Assembly (NCBI RefSeq): GCF_000827125.1
Contig: NZ_CP010311.1
Location: forward strand, 248,001-312,000
Reading direction: 5' to 3'
From: Geoalkalibacter subterraneus
GTDB taxonomy: Bacteria > Desulfobacterota > Desulfuromonadia > Desulfuromonadales > Geoalkalibacteraceae
Length of the DNA stretch: 64,000 bases
Below are positions 40,960 to 58,663 of the stretch, in pieces. Under the pieces are notes generated by a model. It saw nothing but the letters and a program-made list of their open reading frames with translations. It searched no databases and was not told the DNA's origin. How positions within the stretch are numbered: the stretch's first letter is position 1; every line of letters begins with the position of its first letter. A program made the translations under genes and the position numbers.

Positions 40960-41594
40960 ATCAGCCCCGCATCTCCATAATCTCCATGGGGCCCGGCAGC
41001 CCCGGCTTGCTGACAGCGCGCGCCCGTCGGGCGCTGGAAACAATCGACCTGGCCGTCGGCGCGCCACGCCTGACCCAGGGGCTCACGGTTCCCTGCTATT
41101 CGCCGGAGCCGCTAATCAGCGGGACGATCGAGTATATCCGCAGTCATCCGGATAAACTCATCGGTGTTCTGGTCAGCGGCGATGCCGGGTTCTACAGCCT
41201 CAGCCGGGCTATCGTTGCAGCCTTTGGGCGCAAGTCGGTTACCGTCATCCCCGGTGTCAGCGTGGTGCAGGCCGCCTTTGCTGCCATCGCCGAACCCTGG
41301 CAGGAGGCCCGTTTCTTTTCCGTCCATGGACGAGAAGCGGTGTTGAACATTCCGGCCATCATGGCAAGCGAGCGCTTTTTGGTTCTCTGTGACGGTAGCC
41401 ACAACCCCCGCGCTATTCTGGAGCGCTACCCCCGACTGCTTGAGTACTTTGACCTGTGGTCCATGAGCAACCTCAGCCTTGACAATGAAATGATCGTCCC
41501 CGTGACCAGGGAAACCGTCATTCCTGAAGATCCCCTGAGTTGTGTGGTGGGAATAAAAAAAGAGAAGGAAAATCATATTGATGGAGAACAGTGA
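40956..41594 (+). CDS. cbiE: Cobalt-precorrin-7 C5-methyltransferase
   Basis: 212 residues, SAM-dependent tetrapyrrole methylase fold: SMGPGSPGLLTARARRAL, VLVSGDAGFYSLSR, VIPGVSVVQAAFA and WSMSNLSLDNE. It methylates C-5 of cobalt-precorrin-7. Starts at GTG overlapping the cbiD stop. CbiE is normally paired with or fused to CbiT, which methylates C-15 and decarboxylates C-12; here the next gene is cbiF and no CbiT domain follows. Confidence 0.9.
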   Translation: MNQPRISIISMGPGSPGLLTARARRALETIDLAVGAPRLTQGLTVPCYSPEPLISGTIEYIRSHPDKLIGVLVSGDAGFYSLSRAIVAAFGRKSVTVIPGVSVVQAAFAAIAEPWQEARFFSVHGREAVLNIPAIMASERFLVLCDGSHNPRAILERYPRLLEYFDLWSMSNLSLDNEMIVPVTRETVIPEDPLSCVVGIKKEKENHIDGEQ

Positions 41595-42348
41595 AAGATC
41601 TTGCGTTTATTTCATCGGCGCCGGTCCCGGCGATCCGGAGCTGATCACTCTGAAGGGGATCAATGCGATCAAGCGCTGCCGGACGGTCATCTACGCCGGC
41701 AGTCTGGTGGCCCCGGAAATTCTCGATCACTGTGCTGCCGGTGCCGATATCTACAGCTCCGCCTCCATGAATCTGGAGCAGATTATCGCCGTCATGGTGG
41801 AGGCGATCGGCCGGGGTCACAGCGTGGCGCGCCTGCATACCGGTGACCCCTCTATTTACGGCGCCATTCAGGAGCAGATGGCCGAGCTGGACAAGCACGG
41901 CATTGCCTACTGCGTTATCCCCGGTGTCACGGCGGTGTTTGCGGCGGCAGCCGCCCTGCGCACCGAGCTGACCGCGCCGGAGCAGTCCCAGACCCTGGTT
42001 ATCAGCCGTATTGCCGGTCGCACTCCTGTGCCCGAGGATGAAGAGGTGGCGCGTTTGGCCTCCCATGGCGGCACCTTCTGTTTCTACCTTTCGGTGGACC
42101 GTTTCAGCGACATTGCCCGGCAGTTTTTCGAGCAGGGATGGAGCCCGCAAACCCCCGTGGCGATGGTTTATCGTGCCAGCTGGCCCGATGAACTGATCAG
42201 GCGTGGCACCCTGGCGGACATGGCCGGGCAGATTACAGACAGTGGCGTCAACAAGCACGCTGTGGTGATCGTTGGTAAGCCTCTGGGAGCCATCGGCGCC
42301 TACTCAAAACTGTATGACCGGGAGTTCAGCCATGGCACCCGCCCCTGA
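41581..42348 (+). CDS. cbiF: Cobalt-precorrin-4 C11-methyltransferase
   Basis: 255 residues. SAM-binding FIGAGPGDPELITLKG, AGSLVAPEIL, RLHTGDPSIYGAIQEQMAEL and VIPGVTAVFAAAAAL, all typical of CbiF/CobM. It methylates C-11 after ring contraction. The ATG at 41581 is used; a TTG one codon earlier is closer to the GAGAAGGA site. It overlaps both neighbours. Confidence 0.96.
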   Translation: MENSERSCVYFIGAGPGDPELITLKGINAIKRCRTVIYAGSLVAPEILDHCAAGADIYSSASMNLEQIIAVMVEAIGRGHSVARLHTGDPSIYGAIQEQMAELDKHGIAYCVIPGVTAVFAAAAALRTELTAPEQSQTLVISRIAGRTPVPEDEEVARLASHGGTFCFYLSVDRFSDIARQFFEQGWSPQTPVAMVYRASWPDELIRRGTLADMAGQITDSGVNKHAVVIVGKPLGAIGAYSKLYDREFSHGTRP

Positions 42349-43123
42349 TCTTGCGGTCATCGCTGTGACCGGGGCCGGAGCACGTCTGGCGGCCGGAATC
42401 AGCGCCGAGCTGGGCGGCAGTCTCCATCTGTCAGGCAGTATGGCTACGGAATATGACGCCACCCCCTACGATTCCCTCGCTGACCAGTTCGCTCGACTGA
42501 TGGACGGCAGCAAGCGTGGTATTGTCGCGGTCATGGCCCAGGGGATCGTCACCCGCATGATCGCCCCGCACCTGCAGTCTAAATACCAAGACCCCGCCGT
42601 AGTTACCTGTGACGAGGTGGGGCGTTTCGCCATCAGCACTGTTTCCGGCCACGAAGGGGGGGCCAATCAGCTGGCCCACGCCGTGGCGTCGATCACCGGC
42701 GCAACCCCCGTTATCACCACCGCCACCGAGGCCAACCGCTGCCATGTGCTGGGTATCGGCTGTCGTCGTGGCACCTCCAAAGGGGCCATTCTTCACGCCA
42801 TCCGTAGCGGCTGCGAACAGGCGGGCATTACTCCTGTTCGGCTGCGGCTGGTGGCCTCGGCCTGGGTCAAGAAGGATGAGCTAGGGCTTATTGCCGCAGT
42901 CGAAGAGCTAGGGCTTTATCTGCGTTTTCTCCCCCGCAGCGCCTATGAGAATCCGCTGTATAATTTCACGGCTTACGACGGCCCTATGCGCCATTTGGGG
43001 ATTCCCGGCGTGGCCGAACCCTCGGCCCTGCTGGCAGCCGTCGACCCGCGTCTGCTGTTGCCCCGCACTGTTATCGACTCCGTCACCATCGCCATCGCTC
43101 AGGAAGGACTTATCCATGCCTGA
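42332..43123 (+). CDS. cbiG: Cobalt-precorrin-5A hydrolase
   Basis: 263 residues. Both CbiG halves are present: the N-terminal VTCDEVGRFAISTVSGHEGG ANQLAH segment and the C-terminal CbiG_C domain with LGIGCRRGTSKGAI, ASAWVKKDELGL and GIPGVAEPSALLAA. It opens the delta-lactone and releases acetaldehyde. It is shorter than the roughly 350-residue CbiG of Salmonella, so the linker region is reduced. It overlaps cbiF by 17 bases and cbiH by 8. Confidence 0.93.
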   Translation: MAPAPDLAVIAVTGAGARLAAGISAELGGSLHLSGSMATEYDATPYDSLADQFARLMDGSKRGIVAVMAQGIVTRMIAPHLQSKYQDPAVVTCDEVGRFAISTVSGHEGGANQLAHAVASITGATPVITTATEANRCHVLGIGCRRGTSKGAILHAIRSGCEQAGITPVRLRLVASAWVKKDELGLIAAVEELGLYLRFLPRSAYENPLYNFTAYDGPMRHLGIPGVAEPSALLAAVDPRLLLPRTVIDSVTIAIAQEGLIHA

Positions 43124-43862
43124 TGGAATTCTCTTTGTGGTCGGAACCGGCCCCGGAACGGAGGACTTCATGGCCCCCGCCGCTGGTCACGCCATCGCCG
43201 GTGCCGATTATGTCTGTGGATATAAACCCTATCTGGAACAGATAGAACATTTGATTCCCACAACGGCCCAGGTCTTCAGCAACGGCATGACCGGTGAGAA
43301 GGAACGGGTGGAGAAAGCCCTGGCAGCCATGGAGCAGGGGCAGCGCGTTGCCCTTGTCTGTGGCGGTGACGCTTCGCTGTACTCCCTGGCCTCGCTGGTT
43401 TTCGAGTTGGCCGGCGATACCGATGCTATTGAAGTTATCCCCGGCATCACCGCCGCCCTGGCCGCCTCGGCTCGTCTCGGCGCTCCCGTCGCCGACGATC
43501 TGGCGATCATCTCCATGTCTGACCTGCTCACCCCCTGGGAACTGATCCAAAAGCGCATCGAGGCGGTCAATAGCGGCGATTTCGTCTGCGCCATCTACAA
43601 CCCGCGCAGCACCAAACGCACCACCCAGCTCGCCTATACGGTGCAGCGCTTCATGGCGGAGCGCGGTGACCTTGCCTGCGGCTTCGTGCGCCACTGCTAC
43701 CGGGAGGGAGAAAGCATCTGGACCGGCTATTTGAGTCAGCTTGATCTGGAAAACATCGACATGAGTACCCTCCTCATGGTCGGCAACACCCGCACCATCC
43801 TCAAAAACGGCAAACTGGTCACGCCGCGCGGCTACACTGCCAAATACGGGGCGCGTCCATGA
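43116..43862 (+). CDS. cbiH: Cobalt-factor III C17-methyltransferase
   Basis: 248 residues from the ATG that follows AGGAAGGA (MPDGILFVVGTGPGTEDFMA). Other motifs: YVCGYKPYLEQIE, VCGGDASLYSLASL, VIPGITAALAASARLGAP, DLLTPWELIQKR and YNPRSTKRTTQL. CbiH methylates C-17 with ring contraction. A longer upstream start at 42945 would overlap cbiG heavily and is rejected. Confidence 0.96.
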   Translation: MPDGILFVVGTGPGTEDFMAPAAGHAIAGADYVCGYKPYLEQIEHLIPTTAQVFSNGMTGEKERVEKALAAMEQGQRVALVCGGDASLYSLASLVFELAGDTDAIEVIPGITAALAASARLGAPVADDLAIISMSDLLTPWELIQKRIEAVNSGDFVCAIYNPRSTKRTTQLAYTVQRFMAERGDLACGFVRHCYREGESIWTGYLSQLDLENIDMSTLLMVGNTRTILKNGKLVTPRGYTAKYGARP

Positions 43863-44545
43863 TCCTCGTATTGGGCGGCACTTCCACGACCCATCAGGTG
43901 ATGACTGAACTTGAGGAAGCGGGTGAGCGGCTCCTGCTCATCAGTGTCGCCACCGATTATGGTCTGCAGGAGTTCGCCGCCCGTTATCCAGGACGGGTCA
44001 TCCACACGCGCTTCAATCCGGAGAGTCTGGCGCACTTTATCGCCGAACGAGCCATTACCCGCATTATCGACACCACCCATCCGCACGCCAGAGAAATCAG
44101 CGCCATCGCCCAACAGGTTGCCGAAGAGTGTGCAATCACCTACGAAAGCTGGGTGCGGCCTGTCGCGGAACTCGAAGCAGAGCCGGGAATCGTGATCTGC
44201 GCTGGCGCGGATGAAGCCTCCGCCTACCTGCAAAATTCTCCCCATCAGGGCATTCTCTTCACCACCGGCAGCAATAGCATCGAACGCTTCGCGCCCCTTG
44301 CCAAGCGAAGCTACGCCCGTGTTCTCCCCTTTGAAGATTCCATCGCTAAATGCGTGGCTGCCGGATTTGACCGCTCCCGCATCATCGCTCTGCAAGGGCC
44401 GTTTTCCACGGCATTCAACGCGGCACTTTGTCGCGAGTACCGCATCGACTGCATGGTGACCAAGAACAGCGGAGAGGGGAGTGGCTTTGAGGAGAAGCGG
44501 GAGGCATGCCGGGAGTTGGGGATAGAGCTGGTGGTGATCGGGTAG
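43859..44545 (+). CDS. cbiJ: Cobalt-precorrin-6A reductase
   Basis: 228 residues: N-terminal ILVLGGTSTTHQ nucleotide-binding segment, DTTHPHAREISAIAQQ, and C-terminal ALQGPFSTAFNAAL and MVTKNSGEGSGFEEK, which match CbiJ/CobK. It reduces cobalt-precorrin-6A with NAD(P)H. It overlaps cbiH by 4 bases and is the last gene of the forward cluster; cbiC converges on it with a 4-base gap. Confidence 0.94.
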   Translation: MILVLGGTSTTHQVMTELEEAGERLLLISVATDYGLQEFAARYPGRVIHTRFNPESLAHFIAERAITRIIDTTHPHAREISAIAQQVAEECAITYESWVRPVAELEAEPGIVICAGADEASAYLQNSPHQGILFTTGSNSIERFAPLAKRSYARVLPFEDSIAKCVAAGFDRSRIIALQGPFSTAFNAALCREYRIDCMVTKNSGEGSGFEEKREACRELGIELVVIG

Positions 44546-44549
44546 CCAG

Positions 44550-45170
44550 TCATCTCCCTTGCCCAAGCACCACCAGCAGCCCGTTGATCACCGTGGCGGC
44601 GCAGGGGCTACCCCCCTTGGGACCACGGTTGGTGACGTGCGGAATGGTGGTTTGGCGCAGCAGATTCTTGGATTCTTCGGCTTTGACGAAGCCTACGGGC
44701 AGTCCGGCGACGAAGGCGGGGTGCATTCTTCCGGCGGCGGTGAGTTCCAACAGTTTCAGCAGGGCAGTGGGGGCGTTGCCGATGGCATAGATGGCTTCGG
44801 GGTAACGTTCGGCGGCGTAGAGCATGGCGGTTTCGGCCCGGGTGAGATTTTCGGCACTGGCGCGGGTCAGCACGTCCGGTTCGCTGATAAAGCAGTGCAC
44901 CTGATTGCCGTATTGTTGCAGGTAGCGGCTGGTAATCCCGACTCGCACCATTTCCACATCACAGATGATGGGTACACCACGACGCAGGGCCGCCACACCT
45001 GCGGCAACGGCACCGGGCAGAATACAGGTCAGCTCGGCGAACTCCATGTCTCCCGTGGTGTGGATGAGCTTGCGGGCGATGATCTGCTCATCTTCGCTGA
45101 AGCGGCTGAGGTCGGCACCGGCGTTAATGATGGCGAAGCTGTCCTGTTCTATCTGCAGGCCTTTGTTCAT
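44550..45170 (-). CDS. cbiC: Cobalt-precorrin-8 methylmutase
   Basis: 206 residues. ARKLIHTTGDMEFAEL contains the conserved catalytic His. CDVEMVRVGITSRY, AIGNAPTALLKLLEL, GLPVGFVKAEESK and TNRGPKGGSP follow. It moves a methyl group from C-11 to C-12 to give cobyrinate. The start is the ATG following AAGGAGAA; the upstream extension is rejected. Directly downstream of cbiA. Confidence 0.96.
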   Translation of the reverse strand: MNKGLQIEQDSFAIINAGADLSRFSEDEQIIARKLIHTTGDMEFAELTCILPGAVAAGVAALRRGVPIICDVEMVRVGITSRYLQQYGNQVHCFISEPDVLTRASAENLTRAETAMLYAAERYPEAIYAIGNAPTALLKLLELTAAGRMHPAFVAGLPVGFVKAEESKNLLRQTTIPHVTNRGPKGGSPCAATVINGLLVVLGQGR

Positions 45171-45196
45171 AAAATTCTCCTTCGATATGTTCTTTC

Positions 45197-46501
45197 TCAC
45201 TTCAGCAACCAATCCAGCAGCGAGGGCTGGGAGCTGAAATGAAAGTGGACATAGCCCGCCAGGGTCTTGCTCTTGATGAAGCCGTCCCGGCTGCGCGCTC
45301 CATTGGTCACTTTCTCCAGCGTAAAGACGTAGGGTTCATTGACGTCCTCCAGAGTGGAGTAACGAAATTCGTGCCCTACCAGCCCTGTCAGGGAGATCGG
45401 CTCCTGCACCTGCACATAGCCCAGGGCCTGCCGTTTGCCGGTCATGCGGCAGCGGGCAGCAAAGATACCGGTCATGGGGTGGTGTCGGCCTTCACCGTCA
45501 ACAATGCCTTTTGTCAGCAGCATCATGCCGCCGCATTCGGCCAGCAGGGGACGGCTGGCGGCACTGTGTTGGAGCAACCATTGGTGCAGCTCCTGACGGG
45601 TGGACAGGGTTTCGGCGTACAGTTCGGGATAGCCGCCACCGATGTAGATGAAATCGGCCTCGGGCACGGTTTCCCCCGCCAGGGGCGAAAAGAAACGCAA
45701 GGCGTAACCTCGGCGCTCTATCTCCCGCAAATTGGCCTCGTAGTAAAAATTAAAGGCATGGTCGCGAGCTACGGCACAGATGCGCGTGGTTTTCGGGATG
45801 CCTTGCTCCTGCCACTGGAGCTCACTGGTCAGGTCGATGGCACTCAGCGCGTCCAGGTTGACATGCTGCTGCACCAAATCAGCGCAAGCATCGAAGTAGT
45901 TTTCTTCCATTTCCGCTGCCGTGGTGATACCCAGGTGGCGGCTGGGTGCCAGGGGATTGGTCTGGCGGGGCACACTGCCGAGCACCGGAATATCAGTGTG
46001 CTGCTCCAGAGCGCTGCGGATCAGCCGTTCGTGGTTGCTTGACGCCAGTTGATTGACGATCACTCCCACCAAAGGTGTCGACCGGCAGAGGCTCTGTAAC
46101 CCCCGCAGCAGAGCGGCGATGGTGTAGGAGCAGGAGGCGGCGTTCAGTACTACTACCACGGGAAGCCCCAGTTGCACCGCCACATCATAGGAGCTGCCAC
46201 CGAAACGGCGCGGCTCAATGCCGTCAAAAAGGCCCATCACTCCTTCTACCAGAGCCAGGTCACGACCTTGGCAGCCCTGCGCGAAGATCTGACGCAGAGT
46301 CGTTTTGTCAAGCATGACGGAATCCAGATTTTCCACCGGGTTACCGGCGGCTCGGGCCAAATGGCGGCTGTCGATGTAATCGGGACCGCACTTGAAGGGT
46401 GCCACCTTCCGACCCTGACGACTCAGGGCGCGGGCAATACCGGTGGTGATGGTGGTTTTGCCGGAGCCACTGCGCTCGGCGGCGATCAACACACCTTTCA
46501 T
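45197..46501 (-). CDS. cbiA: Cobyrinate a,c-diamide synthase
   Basis: 434 residues. P-loop AAERSGSGKTTITTGIARAL, VEGVMGLFDG, and a C-terminal class I glutamine amidotransferase-like domain (IGGGYPELYAETL, LLAECGGMMLL with the nucleophile Cys, VGHEFRYS). Amidates the a and c side chains with glutamine and ATP. Its ATG overlaps the stop of the Met8-like fragment at 46498-46620. Confidence 0.96.
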   Translation of the reverse strand: MKGVLIAAERSGSGKTTITTGIARALSRQGRKVAPFKCGPDYIDSRHLARAAGNPVENLDSVMLDKTTLRQIFAQGCQGRDLALVEGVMGLFDGIEPRRFGGSSYDVAVQLGLPVVVVLNAASCSYTIAALLRGLQSLCRSTPLVGVIVNQLASSNHERLIRSALEQHTDIPVLGSVPRQTNPLAPSRHLGITTAAEMEENYFDACADLVQQHVNLDALSAIDLTSELQWQEQGIPKTTRICAVARDHAFNFYYEANLREIERRGYALRFFSPLAGETVPEADFIYIGGGYPELYAETLSTRQELHQWLLQHSAASRPLLAECGGMMLLTKGIVDGEGRHHPMTGIFAARCRMTGKRQALGYVQVQEPISLTGLVGHEFRYSTLEDVNEPYVFTLEKVTNGARSRDGFIKSKTLAGYVHFHFSSQPSLLDWLLK

Positions 46502-46620
46502 GATAAGTCCCCTTTGTGCAGGAGATCGCCAATGTATTTCCGCAGTCGTCGCGCCATTTGTCCGCCGCCGACAAAGAGTAGCCGTTTGGCGCTGATATGG
46601 ATCAGAAAGGGATAGTAGCC
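46498..46620 (-). pseudogene. Fragment of a precorrin-2 dehydrogenase (Met8/CysG N-terminal type)
   Basis: Between cbiP and cbiA, in a frame different from both, the minus strand reads GYYPFLIHISAKRLLFVGGG, then QMARRLRKYIG, and stops at the cbiA start. This fits the opening of Met8/CysG-N proteins (YYP...L.VGGG..A.RK), which bind NAD+ and oxidise precorrin-2 to sirohydrochlorin. No start codon is found for the fragment, and the rest of the roughly 200-residue domain is missing. I infer a deletion remnant. Confidence 0.6.
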
Positions 46621-48089
46621 GAATCTAACAGCAGCCCCTCCAGCATGGCGTCGATGTCGCAGTGTTCTTCCAGGGTTTTGGCCAGAAGATCCAGTTGACG
46701 CTCTTTTTCACCCCGATAATCCACGACAGGCAGGGACAGTTGCAACAGATCGGACAGAGCCTGCAGATTGGCAGCACTGTCAAAGAGTCCGTGCAGGTAG
46801 GTTCCGAAAATGCGCCTACGACCATCCCACAGGCACAGGCCATTGGTACTGAGCTGTTCCACGCCGCTGCCGACACAGGAACGCCCCACGTGCATTTCGT
46901 AACCGCTGAGATTTTGCCCTTCCCAGCGGCCCACGCCCGCCCAGTTTCCCTTGTGCAGGGTTTTCTCCTGCGCCATGGTCGTGGTCAAAGGCAGTAGTCC
47001 CAGTCCCTGGGCCGTCCCCGGCTCCCCCTCCACGCCATGGGGGTCTTCCAGTCGTTCCCCCAGCATCTGTAAGCCGCCGCAGATACCCATGATGGGGATG
47101 CGTCCTGTCAGCTCGTGCAGAGCGGCGGCAAAACCGGAGTGGTGGAGGAATTTCAGATCGTGGAGGCTGTGCTTGCTGCCGGGCAGGATGACCAAATCGC
47201 AATCTGAAAGTTCTGCGGGGTTGTGAAGATAGGCAAGACGAACTTCTTCCATCGCTTTTAACGGGGTGAAGTCGGAGAAGTTGCTGATGTGGGGCAGGCG
47301 TACGACGCCAACGCGCAATCGGGCATTCACTTTGCTGAAATCTGAAGCCAGATCCTGAGAATCCTCCTCCTCCAGGCTCAGACGCAGCCAGGGGAGAACT
47401 CCGTGCACCGGCACCGGCACCAGGTCGGCAAACATCTCGATACCCGGCTGCAGCAGGCTGACATCACCCCGGAATTTATTGATGATAAAGCCGGCAATGA
47501 GGGTTCTGGTTTTGTCGGGTACCAGGTCGTAGGTGCCCTTAAGCCAGGCAAAAACACCGCCCCGGTCGATGTCTCCCACCACGAACACCCGCGACCCAGC
47601 GTATTGTGCCATACGCATGTTGACGATATCGGTGCCTTGCAGGTTGATTTCCGCTGGACTGCCCGCCCCTTCCAGAACGATGAAGTCGTATTCGCTGCAC
47701 AGGGAGTCGTAGGCGGCGCTTGCGATAGCGAGATTTTCGCGGGAAAGGCTATAGTATTCGCGGGCGCTGTATGCTCCCACCACACGTCCCATGCGCACCA
47801 GTTGGGAACAGGATTGTCCCTGTGGCTTCAGAAGAATCGGGTTCATACGCACATCGGGAGCCAGGCCCGCTGCTTCAGCCTGCAGAATCTGGGCGCGGCC
47901 CATTTCCAGACCATGAGCGGTCACGCCTGCGTTGAGAGCCATGTTCTGGGATTTGAAAGGCGCAACCCGCACCCCGCGTTGATGCAGCAGACGGCAGAAC
48001 CCGGCGGTGATCAAACTCTTGCCCACGCCGGAACCGGTGCCCTGGAACATGATGGATGGCACTTTGACTCTGTTTGGGGTATTCTGCAA
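46602..48089 (-). CDS. cbiP: Cobyric acid synthase
   Basis: About 495 residues. P-loop-like MFQGTGSGVGKSLITAGFCR, then LHQRGVRVAPFKSQNMALNA, EGAGSPAEINL and GDIDRGGVFA, with an amidotransferase domain holding GICGGLQMLGE (Cys nucleophile) and a C-terminal YLHGLFD. It amidates b, d, e and g positions of the corrin ring. The start is uncertain: TTG 48089 lies 11 bases after AGGAG, while GTG 48062 and ATG 48113 are alternatives. It is divergent from cbiL. Confidence 0.94.
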   Translation of the reverse strand: MQNTPNRVKVPSIMFQGTGSGVGKSLITAGFCRLLHQRGVRVAPFKSQNMALNAGVTAHGLEMGRAQILQAEAAGLAPDVRMNPILLKPQGQSCSQLVRMGRVVGAYSAREYYSLSRENLAIASAAYDSLCSEYDFIVLEGAGSPAEINLQGTDIVNMRMAQYAGSRVFVVGDIDRGGVFAWLKGTYDLVPDKTRTLIAGFIINKFRGDVSLLQPGIEMFADLVPVPVHGVLPWLRLSLEEEDSQDLASDFSKVNARLRVGVVRLPHISNFSDFTPLKAMEEVRLAYLHNPAELSDCDLVILPGSKHSLHDLKFLHHSGFAAALHELTGRIPIMGICGGLQMLGERLEDPHGVEGEPGTAQGLGLLPLTTTMAQEKTLHKGNWAGVGRWEGQNLSGYEMHVGRSCVGSGVEQLSTNGLCLWDGRRRIFGTYLHGLFDSAANLQALSDLLQLSLPVVDYRGEKERQLDLLAKTLEEHCDIDAMLEGLLLDSATIPF

Positions 48090-48126
48090 AACCTTTTTCA
48101 CTCCTATTTGCATGAGGTGCCATATA

Positions 48127-48834
48127 ATGACATCAAAAATGATCTGCGGTATCGGACTGGGTCCCGGTGACCCGGAATTGGTCACCATCAAGGCGGTACG
48201 CGCCATGGAACGGGCCGAGGTAGTGGTGGTGCCCCAGTCCGATGTGACCGGGCGCAGTATCGCCGCCGACATCGTCGCCCACTACGTTCCCGCCGAAAAA
48301 ATCCACATGTATCACTTTCCCATGACCGGCAACAAGGTTGATCTGGATTCCCGTTACAGCGCACTGGCCGCTGACATGGCTGTCTGGGCCAACGACGGAA
48401 AGCGTATCTGCTACGTGACCATTGGCGACACACCGGTTTACAGCACCTTCAACTATCTACGTGAAAAGCTGCTGGAGCGCGGGATTGTCACGGAGATGGT
48501 GCCGGGAATTTCGGCCTTTTCGGCGGCCGCCAACGCCCAGAGCCTGCCGCTGTGTGAAAAGGACGGCTCATTCTGCGTGATCGAAATGCCTGAATCAATG
48601 GCGGAGCTATCTTCCCTGTTGGAGCGTTTCACCTCGGTTGTTCTGATGAAGGTGCATAAACGACTCCCCGCCCTGTGCGAGTTTGTGCGCCAGGCCGATC
48701 TGGCACAGGCCTGGTTGTTCCAGCGGGTGACTCTTGCGGATGAACAGGTGTATGATCTGTTGACCCAGCTTCCGCCGGAATCCGCCGGTTATCTGTCGAC
48801 CGCCATTGTGCAAGGGAAGCCGAAAGAAAGTTGA
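48127..48834 (+). CDS. cbiL: Cobalt-factor II C20-methyltransferase
   Basis: 235 residues. GIGLGPGDPELVTIKAVRAM, VPQSDVTGRSIAADIV, VTIGDTPVYSTFNYL and MVPGISAFSAAANA, matching CbiL/CobI. It adds the C-20 methyl group, the first step after cobalt insertion. It stands alone on the forward strand between reverse-strand cbiP and cbiR, with only about 37 bases to the divergent cbiP start. Confidence 0.94.
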   Translation: MTSKMICGIGLGPGDPELVTIKAVRAMERAEVVVVPQSDVTGRSIAADIVAHYVPAEKIHMYHFPMTGNKVDLDSRYSALAADMAVWANDGKRICYVTIGDTPVYSTFNYLREKLLERGIVTEMVPGISAFSAAANAQSLPLCEKDGSFCVIEMPESMAELSSLLERFTSVVLMKVHKRLPALCEFVRQADLAQAWLFQRVTLADEQVYDLLTQLPPESAGYLSTAIVQGKPKES

Positions 48835-48849
48835 CGACCTTTTTCTCCA

Positions 48850-49518
48850 TCAGAGGTCGCGCAACAGGCCGATTGATTCGCGCAGCGCCTCTTCCTGAAA
48901 AATCTCCAGACAGATTGTCAGCTCTCTTTCCAGAGCAAACTGTTTGACGGTACGCAGCAGGCCGGGATCGATCCACTTGAGACTACGGTGATCGCGCCGG
49001 CCGTCGCTGCCGTGCAAATGAAGCAGGATGATCCGTTCCTGGTGCCTGGTCAGAACGGCTTCCACATCGCGCCGAAAATGAATCATGTGCCCGACATCGA
49101 CACAAAAATCGACGGGCAATGCCGCTGCTTCGTCAAACAGATGGGCATTATCCCCGCCGTTTTCGACACTGATGATCCCTTTATTTGTGCCGGCAAAAGC
49201 CTCCAACTGACAAAAAAAATCGCGCTGTGGCTGCAGGTGAAGCGTATGTGTCTGTGCCTTCAGCGGGCACAGGGAATCGACGAATTTTTGCAGCATCGGC
49301 CATGTCGCAGTGAGTGTTCCATCACGGTCGTAAGGGAGATGAACATTGTAGCGCATCGGCTCCAGCGCCAGCTGGACGACTTCGTGCTCGTCGGGCAAGT
49401 CTTGCGGCTGCCGGCTGCAGAAATAGAGCAGCTCGATTTCCTCCACCAGACCGCGCAAATATTGCACGTTATCCAGACGCTCTGCCGGAATGATAAAGGA
49501 AGGGGCCGCTATGCGCAT
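48850..49518 (-). CDS. cbiR: CbiR-like cobamide-remodelling hydrolase (AP endonuclease 2/xylose isomerase-fold)
   Basis: 222 residues beginning MRIAAPSFIIPAERLDNVQY, then a TIM-barrel with likely metal ligands at H60 (NVHLPYD), E119 (ISVENGG), D141 and H144 (CVDVGHM), H169/D172 (LHLHGSD), H177 and E205 (ICLEIF). This is the AP-endonuclease-2 superfamily pattern. Known CbiR proteins (Akkermansia) hydrolyse the nucleotide loop of cobamides so that the lower ligand can be swapped. The gene overlaps cbiB by 10 bases at the end of a B12 operon, which strongly favours CbiR over a sugar isomerase. Activity is not shown. Confidence 0.78.
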   Translation of the reverse strand: MRIAAPSFIIPAERLDNVQYLRGLVEEIELLYFCSRQPQDLPDEHEVVQLALEPMRYNVHLPYDRDGTLTATWPMLQKFVDSLCPLKAQTHTLHLQPQRDFFCQLEAFAGTNKGIISVENGGDNAHLFDEAAALPVDFCVDVGHMIHFRRDVEAVLTRHQERIILLHLHGSDGRRDHRSLKWIDPGLLRTVKQFALERELTICLEIFQEEALRESIGLLRDL

Positions 49519-50483
49519 GCATATCTCGTTGCTATGTGCAGGATGAGGTAAAAAACTGCAGCAAACAGAGTCAGCAAGGCGGTTGCACTGCTGAATAGTC
49601 CAGTCGCACCGGTAATCAGCATCGCTTCATTAATCCGGGTTCCGTTACCGATATAGGGTTTGTCCTTGCGGATGCCGAAATAGGTCGCTGTGCCGCCGAG
49701 GCGGGTATTGAGGGCGCCGGCAAAAGCGGCCATGCTATGCGCCGAGTTGGGGCTGGCGTGGGCATGACGGAAATGTCGTCCAACGCGCCAGGCATTGCCA
49801 GCGTTCAGGCGACAGCAGAACGCCGCGACGGAAATCAGCACCAGGGACAGCCGCGCCGGAATAAAGTTAAGGACGTCATCCGTTCGTGCGGCAAATTTGC
49901 CGAACCGCTCGTAGCGTTCGTTGCGGTAACCGATCATCGAATCCAAGGTACTGACGGCCTTGAACAGCATCGCTCCGGCCGCACCACCGAAGGCGGCGTA
50001 CATACTCGGTGACAGCACGCCATCGGTAAAGTTTTCCGCCACCGATTCGACGGTCGAACGAATCAACATCTCCTGATCCATCCCCGCCGTATCACGGCTG
50101 ACGATCATTGCCAGCGCCTGTCGGGCACCCTCAAGATCACCGGCAACCAGAGGTGCGTGAACTGCCAACGCATGTTGCACCATGGAGCGGGCACTGACGG
50201 AGAAAAAGATGATCAGGGTGTTGACGGCAAGATAAACGACAACATGGATACTCGCCGCCATCCACAGCAGAAGCAGGGTCGAACTGACCGCAACTGTCGT
50301 CGACAGCAGGGTCAGTAGAGCGCCGCCGGTGAAGCCGAGGGAATATAACCAATTCTCAAGCCGACGGTTCAGGCGCCCCAGCAGACAGATGGGGTGCCAC
50401 CCAGTGCGCGGATCGCCGAGGAAATGATCGAGCAGCAAAGCAACGATCACGCACAGCAGGTTGAGGGCGATGAAAGCTGTCAT
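49509..50483 (-). CDS. cbiB: Adenosylcobinamide-phosphate synthase
   Basis: 324 residues, an integral membrane protein with several helices. The hallmark segments are LLDHFLGDPRTGWHPICLLG, VSRDTAGMDQEMLIRSTVES, ENFTDGVLSPSMYAAFGG and TLDSMIGYRNERYERFGKFA. It joins adenosylcobyric acid to aminopropanol phosphate. Overlaps cobD by 4 bases, the gene that makes its aminopropanol phosphate. Confidence 0.96.
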   Translation of the reverse strand: MTAFIALNLLCVIVALLLDHFLGDPRTGWHPICLLGRLNRRLENWLYSLGFTGGALLTLLSTTVAVSSTLLLLWMAASIHVVVYLAVNTLIIFFSVSARSMVQHALAVHAPLVAGDLEGARQALAMIVSRDTAGMDQEMLIRSTVESVAENFTDGVLSPSMYAAFGGAAGAMLFKAVSTLDSMIGYRNERYERFGKFAARTDDVLNFIPARLSLVLISVAAFCCRLNAGNAWRVGRHFRHAHASPNSAHSMAAFAGALNTRLGGTATYFGIRKDKPYIGNGTRINEAMLITGATGLFSSATALLTLFAAVFYLILHIATRYACA

Positions 50484-51517
50484 GACAGCTCCCGGAACGT
50501 GCCCAGCAGCGGGGTCATGTCGTTTTTGATGCTGAAACGGATGTGCTCGCCGACAAGTCCGCCAAAGTTGCCGCAGTCACGGATCAGCACCCGGCGCGAC
50601 AGGCAATGCTGGAACAATTCCGCCGCCCGTCGCTCCAGCAACCGACAAAGGATGAAATTCACTGTTGACGGCAGAGCCTGCAGCCAGGGGAAGCTATCAA
50701 GCTCAGCGAGCAGCCGTCGCCGCTGCGCGGCAACACGTTGCGCGATCGGTCGGCAGTCGATGTCGATCAACCGCAGGCCGAGTTCCTGGGCTAGACAGTT
50801 GACGTTCCAAGGGGAAGAGCGCTGCTCCAGTTCCGTCGTTAATTTTCTATTGCAACTCAGAGTGAACCCCAGCCGCAGTCCCGGTAAGCCGTGAATTTTG
50901 GAGAAGGAGCGCAGCACCACCAAATTGTCGCTGAGATGCGACGTCAACGTGAGTGATTCTTCTTCAAGGTGGAACGGCAGGTAGGATTCATCGACGACAA
51001 AAAGGGTGGCGGGATGCCGTGCTATAAGCGCGACAAGCTCAGCGCGCAGCACGACTCCGCCGGTGGGGTTGTTGGGGTGGCACAGGAAGCAGAGTTCGCT
51101 GTCGATGCGCGCATCGCCCAAGGTAAAAGCATAATCGGGAGTGGGCGCGACAATCGTTGCGATCTCAAGGGCCGCGGCCCGGGCGTAATGTCCATAATCA
51201 CCGTAGGTCGGCGCGAAAATAGTGACCCGCTTGCCGGTAAAAAGTGCGCAGATCCGTTCGATGGCCTCAGTGGTGCCGGCGCTAACGCAGATGTTTTCCG
51301 GAGCTACCCGGTAGTGATCAGCCAGGGCCGCCCGCAGTGTGTGGCTATGCGGTTCCGGCAGGTGGGCGAGGAGACGCGGAAGGTCGAGCCCGTCCAGCAC
51401 TGCAGGCTGGATGTCGGCGACATTCGAGCTGTAATCGCGGATGTCGTCGGGACGGCAACCTAGAATGGTCGCGGCCCGGTAGATGTTTCCACCATGATTT
51501 TCCTGGGGTACGATCAT
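50480..51517 (-). CDS. cobD: L-threonine-O-3-phosphate decarboxylase (PLP-dependent)
   Basis: 345 residues of fold type I aminotransferase. HGGNIYRAATILG, a PLP phosphate site near SAGTTEAI, FLCHPNNPTGG, VVDESYLPF and RSFSKIHGLPGLRLGF (Lys binds PLP). It decarboxylates threonine phosphate to (R)-1-amino-2-propanol phosphate for CbiB. Sequence resembles histidinol-phosphate aminotransferase, but the operon context settles CobD. Confidence 0.92.
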   Translation of the reverse strand: MIVPQENHGGNIYRAATILGCRPDDIRDYSSNVADIQPAVLDGLDLPRLLAHLPEPHSHTLRAALADHYRVAPENICVSAGTTEAIERICALFTGKRVTIFAPTYGDYGHYARAAALEIATIVAPTPDYAFTLGDARIDSELCFLCHPNNPTGGVVLRAELVALIARHPATLFVVDESYLPFHLEEESLTLTSHLSDNLVVLRSFSKIHGLPGLRLGFTLSCNRKLTTELEQRSSPWNVNCLAQELGLRLIDIDCRPIAQRVAAQRRRLLAELDSFPWLQALPSTVNFILCRLLERRAAELFQHCLSRRVLIRDCGNFGGLVGEHIRFSIKNDMTPLLGTFRELS

Positions 51518-52222
51518 TTACCCTCCAAGCGCAACCGCCGCCAGCAACAACACCGCCTCGCACACTTCGCAGAGCGCGCCGAGCATGTCGCCGGTGACGC
51601 CGCCGATCATCCGCCGATACCACCACAGAATGAGGGCTAGAAACGTCAGATAAACACCGAGGATGCCGATAAAAAGCCCGAAGGGCAGCGCAAAAAAAGC
51701 CAGCGCCAGCAATATCACGCCAGGGATGACCAGCCCGGGGCGCTCACTGGCGAAGAAGGGTCTGGCCAGCCCTTCCGGACGAGCGTAGGGCAGACGTTGC
51801 ATGGCAACGACCATGGCGAAGCGGGACAGCGCCGGAACCAGTACCAGCACAGCGATCGTGTTGATATGGGCAAAAGCCACCCCCTTGGCCCCGAGCACGA
51901 TGACAATCGCCACCACCCCCATGGTTCCCGCATGGACATCCCTCATGATGGCCAGTTTTTTTTCTCGGTCACGGTGGGAGAAGAGGGCATCGGCACTGTC
52001 GCACAGGCCATCCAGATGCAGGGCGCCACTGATCACCACCAGATAGAGGACCATGACCAAGGGGCTAATGGTCGCAGGGGTTAGCCAGTGCAGCAGCGCC
52101 AGCCCCGCACCGATCAACAGCCCGACCCAGGCGAATGCGGCGGTTGCTCTGGCGCCGTCGAAGGTGGCGGGGCCCAGGCGGATAAGGGTCAGAAAATTCA
52201 GTGCGCTGAGAAATCCCCTCAT
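51518..52222 (-). CDS. cobS: Cobalamin 5'-phosphate synthase
   Basis: 234 residues, membrane-bound with about six helices. LDGLCDSADALFSHRDREKK and MRDVHAGTMGVVAI contain the conserved Asp and Gly residues. It joins AdoGDP-cobinamide and alpha-ribazole (phosphate). It overlaps cobU by 4 bases and abuts cobD. Confidence 0.95.
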   Translation of the reverse strand: MRGFLSALNFLTLIRLGPATFDGARATAAFAWVGLLIGAGLALLHWLTPATISPLVMVLYLVVISGALHLDGLCDSADALFSHRDREKKLAIMRDVHAGTMGVVAIVIVLGAKGVAFAHINTIAVLVLVPALSRFAMVVAMQRLPYARPEGLARPFFASERPGLVIPGVILLALAFFALPFGLFIGILGVYLTFLALILWWYRRMIGGVTGDMLGALCEVCEAVLLLAAVALGG

Positions 52223-52740
52223 CGGTGCACCTTGACGGGGACGGCAATGCCGCTGACCATCAGCACCACCTCATCGGCCAGTGTGGCGACGCCGCGGTTG
52301 ATTCGTGCCAGCAGAGCACAGTAGCGGCGGGTCATGGGATCGGCCGGAATCACCCCCAGGGACACTTCGTTAGTGACGATGATGGTGCGCCGCGTCGAGG
52401 TGGCGAGCCGCGACAGAAATTTATTCAGAGGTTCGTCCTCTGCTGTTTCGGTGAAAATCAGATTGCTTGCCCAGAGAGTCAAACAGTCGATAAGAATTGT
52501 GTCGCAGGCAAGATCCAGGGCGCGCTGATAGGCGTCGGCAAGCTGCAGTTGTTCCTCGAGGGTGGTGTAGGAGGCATCCCGCTCCCCCTGATGGACACGG
52601 ATTTTGCGATCCATTTCCGCATCCAGGCTGGTCGGCGCGGTGGCGATGTACGCCTTGCGTGAAGACGGAGCGGCCAGGTTAAGGGCATGATGGGTTTTAC
52701 CGCTGCCGACGCCGCCGGTGATGAGAGTTGTGTATGACAT
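52219..52740 (-). CDS. cobU: Adenosylcobinamide kinase/guanylyltransferase
   Basis: 173 residues. P-loop ITGGVGSGKTHHAL, the catalytic HQGERDASYTTLEE (His accepts GMP), DCLTLWASNL and VTNEVSLGVIPADPMTRRY. It phosphorylates and guanylylates adenosylcobinamide. Short but complete. Confidence 0.95.
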   Translation of the reverse strand: MSYTTLITGGVGSGKTHHALNLAAPSSRKAYIATAPTSLDAEMDRKIRVHQGERDASYTTLEEQLQLADAYQRALDLACDTILIDCLTLWASNLIFTETAEDEPLNKFLSRLATSTRRTIIVTNEVSLGVIPADPMTRRYCALLARINRGVATLADEVVLMVSGIAVPVKVHR

Positions 52741-52769: not shown

Positions 52770-53291
52770 CTACTTCTCTATTCCCTTTCGCGCGGCGATG
52801 CCCTGTTGAAAATAGTGCTTAACCTCGCACATTTCCGTCACCAGGTCGGCTTTCTCCACCAGTTCGGTTGGGGCGTTGCGTCCGGTCAGCACCAGTTCTG
52901 TTTGCCGTGGGCGCAGACGCAGTAGATCAACGATGTCTTCACGGGTTACCAATCCTTTGGTCAGGGCGCCGAGCAGTTCATCCAGCACGATCAGGTCGTA
53001 GTCGCCGGATGTCAATGCCTCTATCGCTTCCGCCATGCCGGTGCGGGCAAGCTGCCGATCTTCAACTGAGGGCTCGCTACGTATGAATTTACCGGTACCG
53101 AAAGCACGATGGATGATGCGATCGTTTAGAGGCTGCAGAGCGGTCCATTCCGATGAATCCCCCTTTTTCAGAAACTGACAAAAGAAGACTTTTCCTCCGG
53201 CTCCGGCGCAGCGCACCGCCAGCCCTACCGCGGCCGTGGTCTTGCCTTTACCGCTACCGGTGTAGATCTGCACATAACCCTGGCCAGGCAT
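52770..53291 (-). CDS. cobO: Corrinoid adenosyltransferase (CobO/BtuR type)
   Basis: 173 residues. Begins GYVQIYTGSGKGKTTAAVGL with a P-loop, then CQFLKKGDSSEW, VLDELLGALTKGLV and VLTGRNAPTELVEKADLVTE. It transfers the adenosyl group of ATP to cob(I)alamin-type corrinoids. Its stop abuts the cobA start. Confidence 0.96.
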   Translation of the reverse strand: MPGQGYVQIYTGSGKGKTTAAVGLAVRCAGAGGKVFFCQFLKKGDSSEWTALQPLNDRIIHRAFGTGKFIRSEPSVEDRQLARTGMAEAIEALTSGDYDLIVLDELLGALTKGLVTREDIVDLLRLRPRQTELVLTGRNAPTELVEKADLVTEMCEVKHYFQQGIAARKGIEK

Positions 53292-54011
53292 CTAAACCTC
53301 CGAGAGCATCGCGACTTCACCGATGACGATAGTGGCCGGATGGCTGATCTGTCGGTCGGCGACACAGGACAAGACCTCCTCCAGGGTGGTAGAGAAAATC
53401 CGTTCCTGCTCGGTTTCCAGATTCTGGCCGATCAGCACCGGCGTGGTGGCCGCCATGCCGTGTTTGAGCAACTGATTTCGGATGACCGGCATGTTTCTGA
53501 CTCCCATGTAGATGACGAGGGTAAAGCCGAGGTTTACCAGCGCGTCCCAGCGGTAACTGGTTTCCAGATTGTCAGCCTTGGTGTGGCCGGTGATGAAGAC
53601 CACTCCTGCCGCAGAGCGGCGATCAGTCAGGGCACTCTGGACCCGGGCGACCAGGGATGAGGCCGAGGTGACGCCGGGGATGATGGTGACGCGGGCTCCG
53701 CTGGCGCGGCCTGCTTCCACTTCCTCCACGGTGCGGGCAAAGACCGAGGTGTCACCCCCTTTGAGACGGACGACGCGCTTGCCCCGTTGCAGTTGCTCGA
53801 TAATTAACTCATTGATCTGGGCCTGGGTCCGGCAATGGGCGTCGTAGGGGCGCTTGCCGACATCCACGACTTCACAGCGGATATGCTCCCGGATGGCGGG
53901 ATGAATCAGGCGGTCGTAGAGAACGACTTCGGCACGGCGGATCGCTTCGATCCCCGCGAGGGTAATGGATTGCGCGCCCAGACCAGCGCCGACGATAATA
54001 AGTTCGCTCAT
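53292..54011 (-). CDS. cobA: Uroporphyrinogen-III C-methyltransferase
   Basis: 239 residues. Tetrapyrrole methylase with VGAGLGAQSITLAGIEAIRR, VVLYDRLIHP, VRLKGGDTSVFART, IIPGVTSAS and YMGVRNMP. The first loop lacks the usual Asp-Pro of GPGDPELLT. It makes precorrin-2, the branch point to B12 and sirohaem. There is no fused CysG N-terminal domain. Confidence 0.95.
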   Translation of the reverse strand: MSELIIVGAGLGAQSITLAGIEAIRRAEVVLYDRLIHPAIREHIRCEVVDVGKRPYDAHCRTQAQINELIIEQLQRGKRVVRLKGGDTSVFARTVEEVEAGRASGARVTIIPGVTSASSLVARVQSALTDRRSAAGVVFITGHTKADNLETSYRWDALVNLGFTLVIYMGVRNMPVIRNQLLKHGMAATTPVLIGQNLETEQERIFSTTLEEVLSCVADRQISHPATIVIGEVAMLSEV

Positions 54012-54017
54012 GTTATC

Positions 54018-54914
54018 TCACAAATCGATTGCCGCCTGTTGCGCGGCCTGTTCCAGCAGATCAAGAAAAATCGCCCGCACGGCGGGGTTCTGTCCCAGCC
54101 CTTCGAGGATGGGTGTCACCTGATATCCATCGTTCTCAAGCAGGGTCAGCCACGAGTCCTCTTCGTCCCCAGCCATGTCATTGCAGGCATGATCCCCGGC
54201 CACGTACATCAGCGGTTTTATCAGCACCTTGCGGGTTCCAGCATTGGCCAGTTTTTCTCGTACGGTTTCGAAGTCGGGCAGTCCTTCCACCAGTCCGATG
54301 CAAACCGGGATGTTGTATTCACGCCGTAGCAGGATTTCCAGTTCGTAATAAGCGCCCTGGGCCATGTGTTCATTACCGTGGCCCATGTAGATCAGGGTGG
54401 CATCAGCGGCACGGGCGTCGTCGATATCGGGTTTCAGAGCCCGCACCAGGGCGCCGAGCTGTTCGCGATGGCCAAAAGAGCCCAGCAGGGGTTTGCCGAT
54501 CGCGACCTTCTCGAAAGGCTGCCATTGAGGTTTGTGGGTTCTGATAGCACCCAGCGCTTGGACATACACAGCCAGATCACGGTACTCTTCGCCGTCAACG
54601 ATCAGGACCGGTTGCACCACGATCCGGCGATAGCCCTCATTCTGCAGGTCGGCCATGACTCCCAGTATGTTTTTGACAGTGTATATCTGCTCGGGAATAG
54701 CTGGATGTTCACGGAGATAGTTGACATCGGTGGCACGCGCATGCCACTTGCGCCGAATGATGTTGGAAGTGAAGGCCAGGCGGACAGGGACGTCGGGATA
54801 ACGCTCTTCCACCTCGTGCAGCATGGCCAGAATCGGTTCCAGGGTTGCTGGATAGGTGGTGCCGAAGGCCGCCAGGACGATAGCCGCGGGAGATTTCTGT
54901 TCGCGCTGCTTCAT
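54018..54914 (-). CDS. cbiK: Sirohydrochlorin cobaltochelatase
   Basis: 298 residues. IVLAAFGTTYPATLEPILAM, FTSNIIRRKW, IYMGHGNEHMAQGAYYELE (catalytic His) and PLMYVAGDHACNDMAGDEED (second metal His), all CbiK features. It inserts Co2+ into sirohydrochlorin. No signal peptide, so it is the cytoplasmic type, unlike the periplasmic CbiKp of Desulfovibrio. It overlaps cobT by 4 bases. Confidence 0.95.
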   Translation of the reverse strand: MKQREQKSPAAIVLAAFGTTYPATLEPILAMLHEVEERYPDVPVRLAFTSNIIRRKWHARATDVNYLREHPAIPEQIYTVKNILGVMADLQNEGYRRIVVQPVLIVDGEEYRDLAVYVQALGAIRTHKPQWQPFEKVAIGKPLLGSFGHREQLGALVRALKPDIDDARAADATLIYMGHGNEHMAQGAYYELEILLRREYNIPVCIGLVEGLPDFETVREKLANAGTRKVLIKPLMYVAGDHACNDMAGDEEDSWLTLLENDGYQVTPILEGLGQNPAVRAIFLDLLEQAAQQAAIDL

Positions 54915-55990
54915 GTTCGTATATCCACCAGATAGTCGCGATTGATCATCGCTTCGTCGAAGGTTGCCATACCGTTTAACACGCCGATCGCAGCATCGAT
55001 AATACCGAAAGCCAACGGGCAACCGCTGCCTTCACCCAACCGCATGTTCAGGTGCAGCATCGGTTCCAGACCAAGTTCGCGCATGATGTGAACATAGCCG
55101 GGTTCCGCCGACAGATGAGAGGGGATCATGTACTCCCGGACCAGCGGGTTGAGGCGGCATGCGATCAGCGCAGCTGCAGCGGAGATAAAACCATCGATGA
55201 CGATCGGTACTTTGCAATGAGCGGCACCCAGAAAGCAACCGGCCATGCCCGCAACGTCCAGGCCACCGACTTTGGCCAGGACATCCAGTGGATCGTTCGG
55301 GTCGGGCTGATGGAGCGCCAGTGCAGCGCTGATGATCTGTTTCTTACGTATCAGGGTTTCGTCGCTGATGCCACCGCCTTTGCCGACGGCGTCATCGGCA
55401 TCGGCTCCGGTAAAGGCCATGTACACGGCGCTGCTGCAACTGGTGTTGCCGATTCCCATTTCGCCGGTGCCGATCAGGTTATAGCCCTCGTCGACCAGAT
55501 TTTTGACCATCTCGATGCCGATCAGCAGAGCCTGTTCCGCTTCGCAGCGATCCATGGCTGGTTCCTTGGCGAAATTGGCGGTGCCGGGGCGGATTTTGCG
55601 TTTGATCAGGCCCGGATGAGAGAGGGTCGGTTTGATGCCGATGTCAACCACGCGCAAGTCAGCGCCGTTGGCGGCGCTGATGACGCAGATGCCGGTGATG
55701 TTCTTGAGCATATTGATGGACTGGATGGCGGTCACTTCCTGGGGGGCGCAGGCAATACCCTCTTCGACGACACCGTGATCGGCGGCCATGACGATGGTGC
55801 ATTTCTTCCGGGCTGCGGGGGTGATGGTACCGCTGATGGCGGCCACCTGCGCGGCGATTTCTTCCAGTTTCCCCAGACTGCCCGGGGGCTTGACAAGACT
55901 GTCGATGCGTGCCTGGGCGGCGGCGCGGATTTCGGCACTTACGGGTTCGATGGCGTTTATAAAGGTTTGTAGCTTGGAGGTTTGCAGCAT
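54911..55990 (-). CDS. cobT: Nicotinate-nucleotide:dimethylbenzimidazole phosphoribosyltransferase
   Basis: 359 residues. VKPPGSLGKLEEIA, MAADHGVVEEGIACAPQEVT, LIGTGEMGIGNTSCSSAVYM, IVIDGFISAAAALIAC and LGEGSGCPLAFGIIDAAI, covering the binding and catalytic Glu near the end. It activates the lower-ligand base to alpha-ribazole phosphate. Follows cbiO after 39 bases. Confidence 0.97.
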   Translation of the reverse strand: MLQTSKLQTFINAIEPVSAEIRAAAQARIDSLVKPPGSLGKLEEIAAQVAAISGTITPAARKKCTIVMAADHGVVEEGIACAPQEVTAIQSINMLKNITGICVISAANGADLRVVDIGIKPTLSHPGLIKRKIRPGTANFAKEPAMDRCEAEQALLIGIEMVKNLVDEGYNLIGTGEMGIGNTSCSSAVYMAFTGADADDAVGKGGGISDETLIRKKQIISAALALHQPDPNDPLDVLAKVGGLDVAGMAGCFLGAAHCKVPIVIDGFISAAAALIACRLNPLVREYMIPSHLSAEPGYVHIMRELGLEPMLHLNMRLGEGSGCPLAFGIIDAAIGVLNGMATFDEAMINRDYLVDIRT

Positions 55991-56029: not shown

Positions 56030-56854
56030 TTAATTTCGTTCCGTTATGTAACGACACAGTTCCTCGACGGTACGCGGCGGGGTACTCCGGGGAGAGCCCA
56101 GCGCATTCCACACCTGCACCACGAAAGGAAGGCCGAGTCCGAAGCGGGTCAGTACCTCCTGCTGTGCAGACAGTGCGTCAGTCGGAATGCGCGCCACGCA
56201 CTTGCCGGCATCCATGATGACCATCGTGTTACTCCACTGATAGGCAAAATCCAGATCATGGGTCGCCAGCACAACACTGAGTCCGCTCGCGTGGAGTTCG
56301 TTGAGCAGATTCAGCAGTTCGTCTTGCATAGCGGGGTCGAGTCCAGCCATGGGTTCATCCAGAATCAGAACTCTGGGATGCATGGCCAGTACTCCGGCGA
56401 GACAGACCCGTTTTTTCTGCCCGAAACTCAGGTGCTGCACCGGCTTATGGGCGCAATCGTTGAGGTGTACAGCAGCAAGTGCCCGATCAACTCTGTGCTG
56501 GACTTCTTCCGCTGCCAGCCCAAGATTGAGCGGCCCGAAGGCAACGTCTTCGCGCACACTGGCGGAAAAAAGCTGACTGTCGGGGTTCTGGAATACCATG
56601 CCGATATCGGTACGCAGGCGGACGAGTTCAGCGCGGCGGTAGTTCAGGAGCCGCTCATCATAGAGCACCTCTCCCTGCTGGGGCTGCAGCAGACCGTTGG
56701 TATGCAGGAGCAGAGTGGTTTTGCCAGCGCCATTGGCACCGAGGACGGCGGTGCGTTCCCCTTCTGCAATCATGAAGGTGCAGTCATCAAGGCCTCTGCT
56801 GCCGTCGGGGTAGCTGTAGTGTACCGCCTGAAATTCGAGAATGGCGCGTGTCAT
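56030..56854 (-). CDS. cbiO: Cobalt ECF transporter ATPase
   Basis: 274 residues. Walker A GANGAGKTTLLLHTNG, Q-loop VFQNPDSQLF, signature LSFGQKKRVCLAGVLAM, Walker B VLILDEPMAGLDP and H-loop ATHDLDF. It energises the CbiMNQO cobalt importer. Overlaps cbiQ by 4 bases. Confidence 0.95.
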   Translation of the reverse strand: MTRAILEFQAVHYSYPDGSRGLDDCTFMIAEGERTAVLGANGAGKTTLLLHTNGLLQPQQGEVLYDERLLNYRRAELVRLRTDIGMVFQNPDSQLFSASVREDVAFGPLNLGLAAEEVQHRVDRALAAVHLNDCAHKPVQHLSFGQKKRVCLAGVLAMHPRVLILDEPMAGLDPAMQDELLNLLNELHASGLSVVLATHDLDFAYQWSNTMVIMDAGKCVARIPTDALSAQQEVLTRFGLGLPFVVQVWNALGSPRSTPPRTVEELCRYITERN

Positions 56855-57615: not shown

Positions 57616-57908
57616 GCACGCCGCATCCGCACGCGGGTGATGGAGACGCCAAGATAATAGCCGATGAAGCCGCCGCCAAGAGCGGCCTGAAATGCAAACA
57701 GAAGGGATTCAATCTCTGCGCTGGGGGGCTCCCATAACGGGCCGAACCAGGGCTCGTAGTCCGGCGCAATTTCGATAATAGCATCCATTGCCTCGCCGTC
57801 CGCGCCGGAAAATATCTCTTTATCCGCCACCGGTTGCACCACCCACAGGGGTAGCAGCGCCAGCAGAAAGACTGCCAGTATCAGCAGCAGGTTCTGGTGC
57901 TTTTTCAT
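57588..57908 (-). CDS. cbiN: Cobalt transporter accessory protein
   Basis: 106 residues. Two membrane segments flank a periplasmic loop with [32 protein letters not shown] and a final [11 protein letters not shown], the CbiN pattern. It assists metal loading into CbiM. Overlaps cbiM by 4 bases. Confidence 0.95.
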
Positions 57909-58582: not shown

Positions 58583-58625
58583 CTTTTCCCTCCTGTGTTC
58601 CCATTTGGCAGCGTGAGGGGCGCGA

Positions 58626-58663
58626 TAAAAAACCCGCCTCCTGAAAAGACAGGGGCGGGTTTC
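58626..58663 (-). terminator. Riboswitch-controlled terminator upstream of cbiM
   Basis: On the minus strand AAACCCGCCCCTGTC and its complement GACAGGAGGCGGGTTTTTT (one mismatch) form a stem with a T tract, about 45 bases before cbiM. It is the likely off-state switch of the cobalamin riboswitch. Confidence 0.92.

Follow-up and report, generated by a model that had tools for sequence, protein, structure and literature searches.

A CbiR-family gene in a riboswitch-led cobamide cluster that appears to have replaced most of the resident B12 pathway of Geoalkalibacter subterraneus

In Geoalkalibacter subterraneus, a gene of the CbiR family closes a riboswitch-led run of cobamide genes, and the cluster to which it belongs appears, from comparison of sequences, to derive from another bacterial family and to have replaced most of the resident one. 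The window analysed here is a stretch of 64,000 nucleotides (contig NZ_CP010311.1, positions 248,001 to 312,000); coordinates without a prefix refer to it. The enzyme family is known, as is the presence of CbiR alongside de novo synthesis, and it is the apparent displacement of a resident cluster that provides a new context. The enzyme itself is ordinary; the interest lies in its history. It is highly probable, in our judgement, that the protein is a CbiR orthologue that works on cobamides fed by an importer, that CobU and CobS rebuild its product, and that its gene came as cargo of the displacing cluster.

The gene is the following.

48850..49518, minus strand: cbiR, 222 aa with an ATG start, cobamide phosphodiesterase family, over the NF041277 cut-off

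The open reading frame described in the earlier note is real, and its assignment to CbiR is well supported at the sequence level. The NCBIfam equivalog model for CbiR, NF041277, matches the protein with 167.9 bits (cut-off 105, E = 2.7e-49), and the next-best NCBIfam family reaches 17.9 bits. Residues 1-220 align to positions 1-248 of the 249 in the model, the protein having 27 positions fewer; most CbiRs of the phylum score far above it (up to 284.7 bits). It misses the gathering score of Pfam AP_endonuc_2 (PF01261; 21.4 vs 31.1 bits).

The earlier note had also seen a complete set of candidate metal ligands, and this is borne out: H60, H94, E119, D141, H144, H167, H177 and E205 are the same in 51/51 other CbiRs. 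The same eight residues are invariant in 16 sub-threshold relatives as well, that is, in all 67 aligned proteins, and therefore mark the superfamily site and not CbiR specifically. Their role as ligands is likely by analogy with Mok 2020 (PMC7733943) and with the superfamily. CbiR is marked, as far as sequence goes, by F207, which is found in 50 of the 51 other CbiRs and is replaced by His in all 16 sub-threshold relatives, and by the N-terminal motif S7, P11 and N17, which is present in the window protein.

The phylogeny proposed as a check groups the protein with CbiR. In a FastTree tree that has a single distant outgroup and no Akkermansia sequence, all 52 CbiRs, including the window's, form one clade with moderate support (0.793), and the 16 sub-threshold proteins are set apart from it (support 0.841). 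Within the clade, the window protein forms a trio with those of Pelovirga terrestris and the MAG KA08 (support 1.0). Leaving aside the own and Pelovirga-type genomes, 64 matches exceeded the cut-off; 49 of these entered the tree and the residue counts, together with two more and with 16 of 27 sub-threshold loci. The link to the characterised enzyme of A. muciniphila runs via NCBI's model.

The predicted structure is poor (mean pLDDT 60.4). Its top PDB match with Foldseek is TTHB071 (E 6.5e-4), and VIA-align superposes it on UlaE with Z 11.6 and rmsd 3.7 over 202 aligned residues. Most of the best fold matches are members of the AP-endonuclease-2/xylose-isomerase superfamily; since de novo designed barrels score almost as high, such matches indicate the type of fold at most. 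A sequence search of the PDB for a solved close relative gave none at E 1. The protein could in principle be some other enzyme of this superfamily, a sugar isomerase or epimerase that merely resembles CbiR, given that the fold matches are mostly to sugar isomerases and epimerases and that the metal-ligand residues occur also in sub-threshold proteins without an assigned function. We regard this as extremely improbable, as the CbiR model is far ahead of any other (167.9 vs 17.9 bits) and both tree position and gene context agree with CbiR. Identity as a sugar isomerase or AP endonuclease was rejected on the family score and the tree position.

CbiR occurs in a sixth of the phylum sample (over cut-off in 66 of 395 genomes of an even draw) and is rare in the organism's class, where a match passes the cut-off in three of 277 genomes: the organism's own, G087 (KA08) and G088 (Pelovirga terrestris). 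Searches by tblastn with the window proteins found a cobamide gene other than cbiR or cbiO at 22 of 38 loci, a count that is insensitive (some listed CbiRs were missed, e.g. L077) and unusable as a frequency.

In another 232 of the class's 277 genomes there are CbiR-like matches, all of them below the threshold. For proteins of this kind from L012, L017, L007, L016, L032 and L030, the CbiR model gives 83-96 bits and no other NCBIfam model exceeds 35. In six of eight loci inspected, the gene directly follows and overlaps one whose product has the look of a K+ channel with two helices and an RCK domain. These proteins look like a sister family of CbiR that has yet to be named, and the partner gene is unexpected.

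The run that ends with cbiR consists of 13 minus-strand genes in the order cbiM-cbiN-cbiQ-cbiO-cobT-cbiK-cobA-cobO-cobU-cobS-cobD-cbiB-cbiR, which are presumably co-transcribed. Upstream of cbiR its features are as follows.

58710-58933, minus strand: cobalamin riboswitch upstream of the run (RF00174 91.4 bits, gathering 31.5)
58653-58633, minus strand: terminator-like hairpin after the riboswitch
57905..58696, minus strand: cbiM (TIGR00123 272.5 bits vs 184.15, alignment from residue 39)
57594..57908, minus strand: cbiN candidate, by synteny (82% identity over 105 columns to the Pelovirga ORF between cbiM and cbiQ)
56851..57615, minus strand: cbiQ (PF02361 106.9 bits vs 25)
56030..56854, minus strand: cbiO, cobalt importer ATPase (ABC_tran 113 bits; syntenic in Pelovirga)
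54911..55990, minus strand: cobT (TIGR03160 438.1 bits vs 319.3)
54018..55022, minus strand: cbiK, cobalt chelatase (PF06180 225.3 bits vs 26.2)
53292..54011, minus strand: cobA/cysG-type uroporphyrinogen-III methyltransferase (TIGR01469 217.4 bits vs 185)
52770..53291, minus strand: cobO/cobA-type corrinoid adenosyltransferase (NF004637 177.6 bits, below cut-off 185)
52219..52740, minus strand: cobU (sole NCBIfam match NF004469, 137 bits, below cut-off 161)
51518..52222, minus strand: cobS (TIGR00317 114.1 bits vs 110)
50480..51517, minus strand: cobD, threonine-phosphate decarboxylase type (TIGR01140 256.9 bits, below cut-off 290.55)
49509..50483, minus strand: cbiB (TIGR00380 228 bits vs 165.9)

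Terminator-like sites are about as frequent in this region as in shuffles (12 found, 10.2 expected), and the true start of cbiM is probably near 58582. The stop codon TAG of cbiB lies inside the start of cbiR, giving the 10-base overlap that had been noticed before. The neighbouring cbiL is convergent with cbiR, which makes cbiR the final gene of the run, as had likewise been proposed. The rest of the cluster lies on the far side of cbiR.

48007..48834, plus strand: cbiL, convergent with cbiR (TIGR01467 205.5 bits vs 163.25, from residue 45)
44550..48158, minus strand: cbiP, cbiA and cbiC; cbiP and cbiA over their cut-offs
39958..44545, plus strand: cbiD, cbiE (no T domain), cbiF, cbiG, cbiH and cbiJ; cbiD, E, F, H and J over cut-off

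The match of cbiC to NF004620 (183.9 bits) is below the cut-off of 264, and that of cbiG to NF005441 (204.9 bits) is likewise under cut-off. For cobD, cobU, cobO, cbiC and cbiG, whose best family falls below the strict cut-off, the names are backed by synteny with Pelovirga. The earlier description of a full B12 biosynthesis operon needs qualifying, as the run behind the riboswitch does not comprise the whole pathway: cbiPAC is a separate minus-strand group, the plus strand carries cbiL and cbiDEFGHJ, and cbiT is absent from the window. Genome-wide, a single CbiT match exceeds the cut-off, a distant CbiET fusion at 2.937 Mb, which can supply the missing CbiT. Foreign base composition of the cluster was looked for via GC content and not seen (58.8%, vs 56.8% and 58.0% in the flanks).

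How CbiR acts has been described for A. muciniphila. In Mok 2020 (PMC7733943), the enzyme splits AdoCbl and MeCbl into alpha-ribazole and the corresponding forms of cobinamide-phosphate in an anaerobic reaction that requires DTT and is inhibited by EDTA, and it is not selective for the lower ligand. The product of the characterised enzyme is cobinamide-phosphate, where the earlier note had cobinamide. According to the same source, cobamide biosynthesis genes adjoin 80% of 282 CbiR homologs, and CbiR is present in 26 strains of A. muciniphila that have the de novo pathway. Its co-occurrence with de novo synthesis is hence already in print, and the contrast once drawn between salvaging organisms and this de novo producer is weakened. 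A text search of PMC9426567 gave no mention of CbiR by name.

We infer the catalytic activity, substrates and products of the window CbiR from the named families, and the proposed mechanism is as follows. When cobamide is scarce, the riboswitch would permit transcription of the cbiM-cbiR run. A riboswitch-led, Btu-type importer would probably deliver substrate cobamides. CbiR, a predicted metal-dependent TIM-barrel phosphodiesterase, would cut the nucleotide loop, releasing cobinamide-phosphate and an alpha-ribazole-type nucleoside, and CobU and CobS would then use the cobinamide-phosphate to assemble a new cobamide with any base that CobT activates. The run contains cobT, cobU and cobS, so this rebuilding route is present. 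The importer genes form a second riboswitch-led locus in the same genome.

G000:C1 27856-28035: second cobalamin riboswitch, 106.3 bits
G000:C1 27856-33351: btuB-btuF-btuC-btuD-like genes, riboswitch included

The names in this locus denote best or good matches and not passes of equivalog cut-offs: the TonB receptor has the B12 receptor family as its best match (253 bits, under the strict cut-off) and is followed by a BtuF-like binding protein, a BtuC-like permease and a corrinoid-type ATPase. Remodelling of scavenged cobamides, as first suggested, is thus plausible, with the activity itself predicted from homology; probably CbiR starts the remodelling of imported cobamides and perhaps also serves in recovery of the lower ligand.

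Instead of acting on imported cobamides, CbiR might remove wrongly made or damaged cobamides of the cell's own making. Its gene points the same way as de novo genes and lies behind their riboswitch, so that its expression would be expected when cobamide is scarce and synthesis is running. However, ample cobamide would repress the run through the riboswitch just as surplus wrong product builds up, and the known enzyme is non-selective for the lower ligand (Mok 2020, PMC7733943). Such an editing role seems to us very unlikely.

The supply of the lower ligand bears on a further possibility, namely that the organism makes its own corrin and no benzimidazole, and cuts imported cobamides mainly for their alpha-ribazole. 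The uptake genes just described would serve it. No protein in the organism's own genome passes the BluB cut-off (best 41.9 bits vs 150), although BluB passes in both G087 (254.2 bits) and G088 (253.4 bits), where bluB lies beside cbiC in the same cluster.

L140 18580-19287 (G088): bluB, beside cbiC

At the corresponding junction in the window bluB is absent, and cbiC and cbiJ abut (44545/44550). The genome encodes one ThiC-family protein, which is over the cut-off of ThiC models, its best matches, and below the BzaB model; its gene adjoins one or more thi genes, the neighbour being presumably of thiE/thiD type. With no BluB over cut-off and only this one ThiC, the genome gives no sign of a known benzimidazole route. 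Against this, CobT may activate adenine or imported free bases, benzimidazole routes yet to be discovered may exist, and missing ligand genes are common: 42% of predicted cobamide producers are without genes for benzimidazole synthesis and phenolic attachment, according to Shelton 2018 (PMC6461909). We hold it rather unlikely that ligand recovery is the main role, and prefer remodelling followed by rebuilding with CobU and CobS.

Two genomes of the organism's own family, G044 (L146 8398-9789) and G042, encode a second ThiC-family protein that is 46-48% identical to ThiC, over the ThiC cut-off and under that of BzaB. It is a candidate benzimidazole synthase.

The history of the cluster is indicated by its relatives. 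Twenty-two cluster genes of the window are 80-92% identical to those of Pelovirga terrestris (G088), which is from another family of the same order, and 27-53% identical to those of three genomes of the own family (G041, G042 and G044). ThiC, a yardstick of one gene and not a genome average, has the reverse pattern, with 89-91% identity to the own family and 78-79% to Pelovirga. In the three own-family genomes, one long cobamide cluster lies by a gene that we take to be engB and includes cbiET, cbiB and nearly all other genes; none of the three has a gene over the CbiR cut-off. What is left of this resident cluster in the organism's own genome is the following.

G000:C1 2936109-2939208 (L042 16109-19208): engB-cbiET-cbiB, remnant of the resident cobamide cluster

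The remnant resembles the own family (cbiET 76-77%, second cbiB 70-71% and engB 70-73% identity), and a gene with a counterpart in G041 (62%) flanks the slot on its other side. That the genome might hold a second complete pathway was considered and rejected: the 2.94-Mb locus has only cbiET and the second cbiB, and there is a single cbiD genome-wide.

In G087 and G088 the engB neighbourhood holds only cbiET, 62% identical to that of the window organism, and a gene that is presumably cobC-like. This histidine phosphatase gene lies beside cbiET at L154 8346-8951 and L155 11422-12027, both in Pelovirga-type genomes; between engB and cbiET of the window's genome there is none.

The simplest reading is that a CbiR-bearing cluster without cbiT took over in both lineages, each of which kept its own cbiET. 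In G. subterraneus, cbiR would have arrived as cargo of the complete cobamide cluster shared with Pelovirga, which would have displaced most of the resident genes. We infer the direction of transfer. Our searches of the literature on CbiR, cobamide remodelling and Pelovirga cobalamin found nothing on transfer of the cluster, a statement that extends to these searches alone. A further step, unlikely in our view, would be that in addition to such a displacement in two families with cbiET kept, CbiR has become the lower-ligand source of the window organism, which shows no known benzimidazole synthesis, and strips imported cobamides to complete corrins that the cell makes de novo.

The presence of a remodelling enzyme in a cobamide cluster that is both transferable and under riboswitch control ties remodelling to the spread of whole B12 pathways between bacteria. 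The cbiET kept in two lineages offers a clear test case for a hybrid pathway from two sources. What is added here is evidence of a resident B12 pathway displaced by a CbiR-bearing cluster that relies on a left-over resident gene.

Four known systems can be compared with the window. The A. muciniphila CbiR (Amuc_1679) belongs to the same curated family, has the same ligand types and probably the same superfamily fold, and likewise lies beside cbiB, cobS, cobU and cobT. In contrast, the window cbiR stands behind a cobalamin riboswitch and clusters with almost every ring-synthesis gene, and its product, whose activity is predicted only, is about 27 positions shorter than the family model. The de novo strains of A. 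muciniphila resemble the window organism in having CbiR and de novo synthesis in one genome, whereas the window's CbiR is within one contiguous cluster common to two bacterial families. CbiZ also begins cobamide remodelling, which has been noted in cobamide producers (Shelton 2018, PMC6461909); however, it is an amidohydrolase of another family that cuts another bond, and a search for it (PF01955) found none at E 0.001 in eight genomes, that of the window organism included. The cluster of Pelovirga terrestris (L002, G088) has the same genes in the same order and a CbiR that is 84% identical; unlike in the window, its cbiC and cbiJ are separated by bluB and roughly 6 kb of additional genes.
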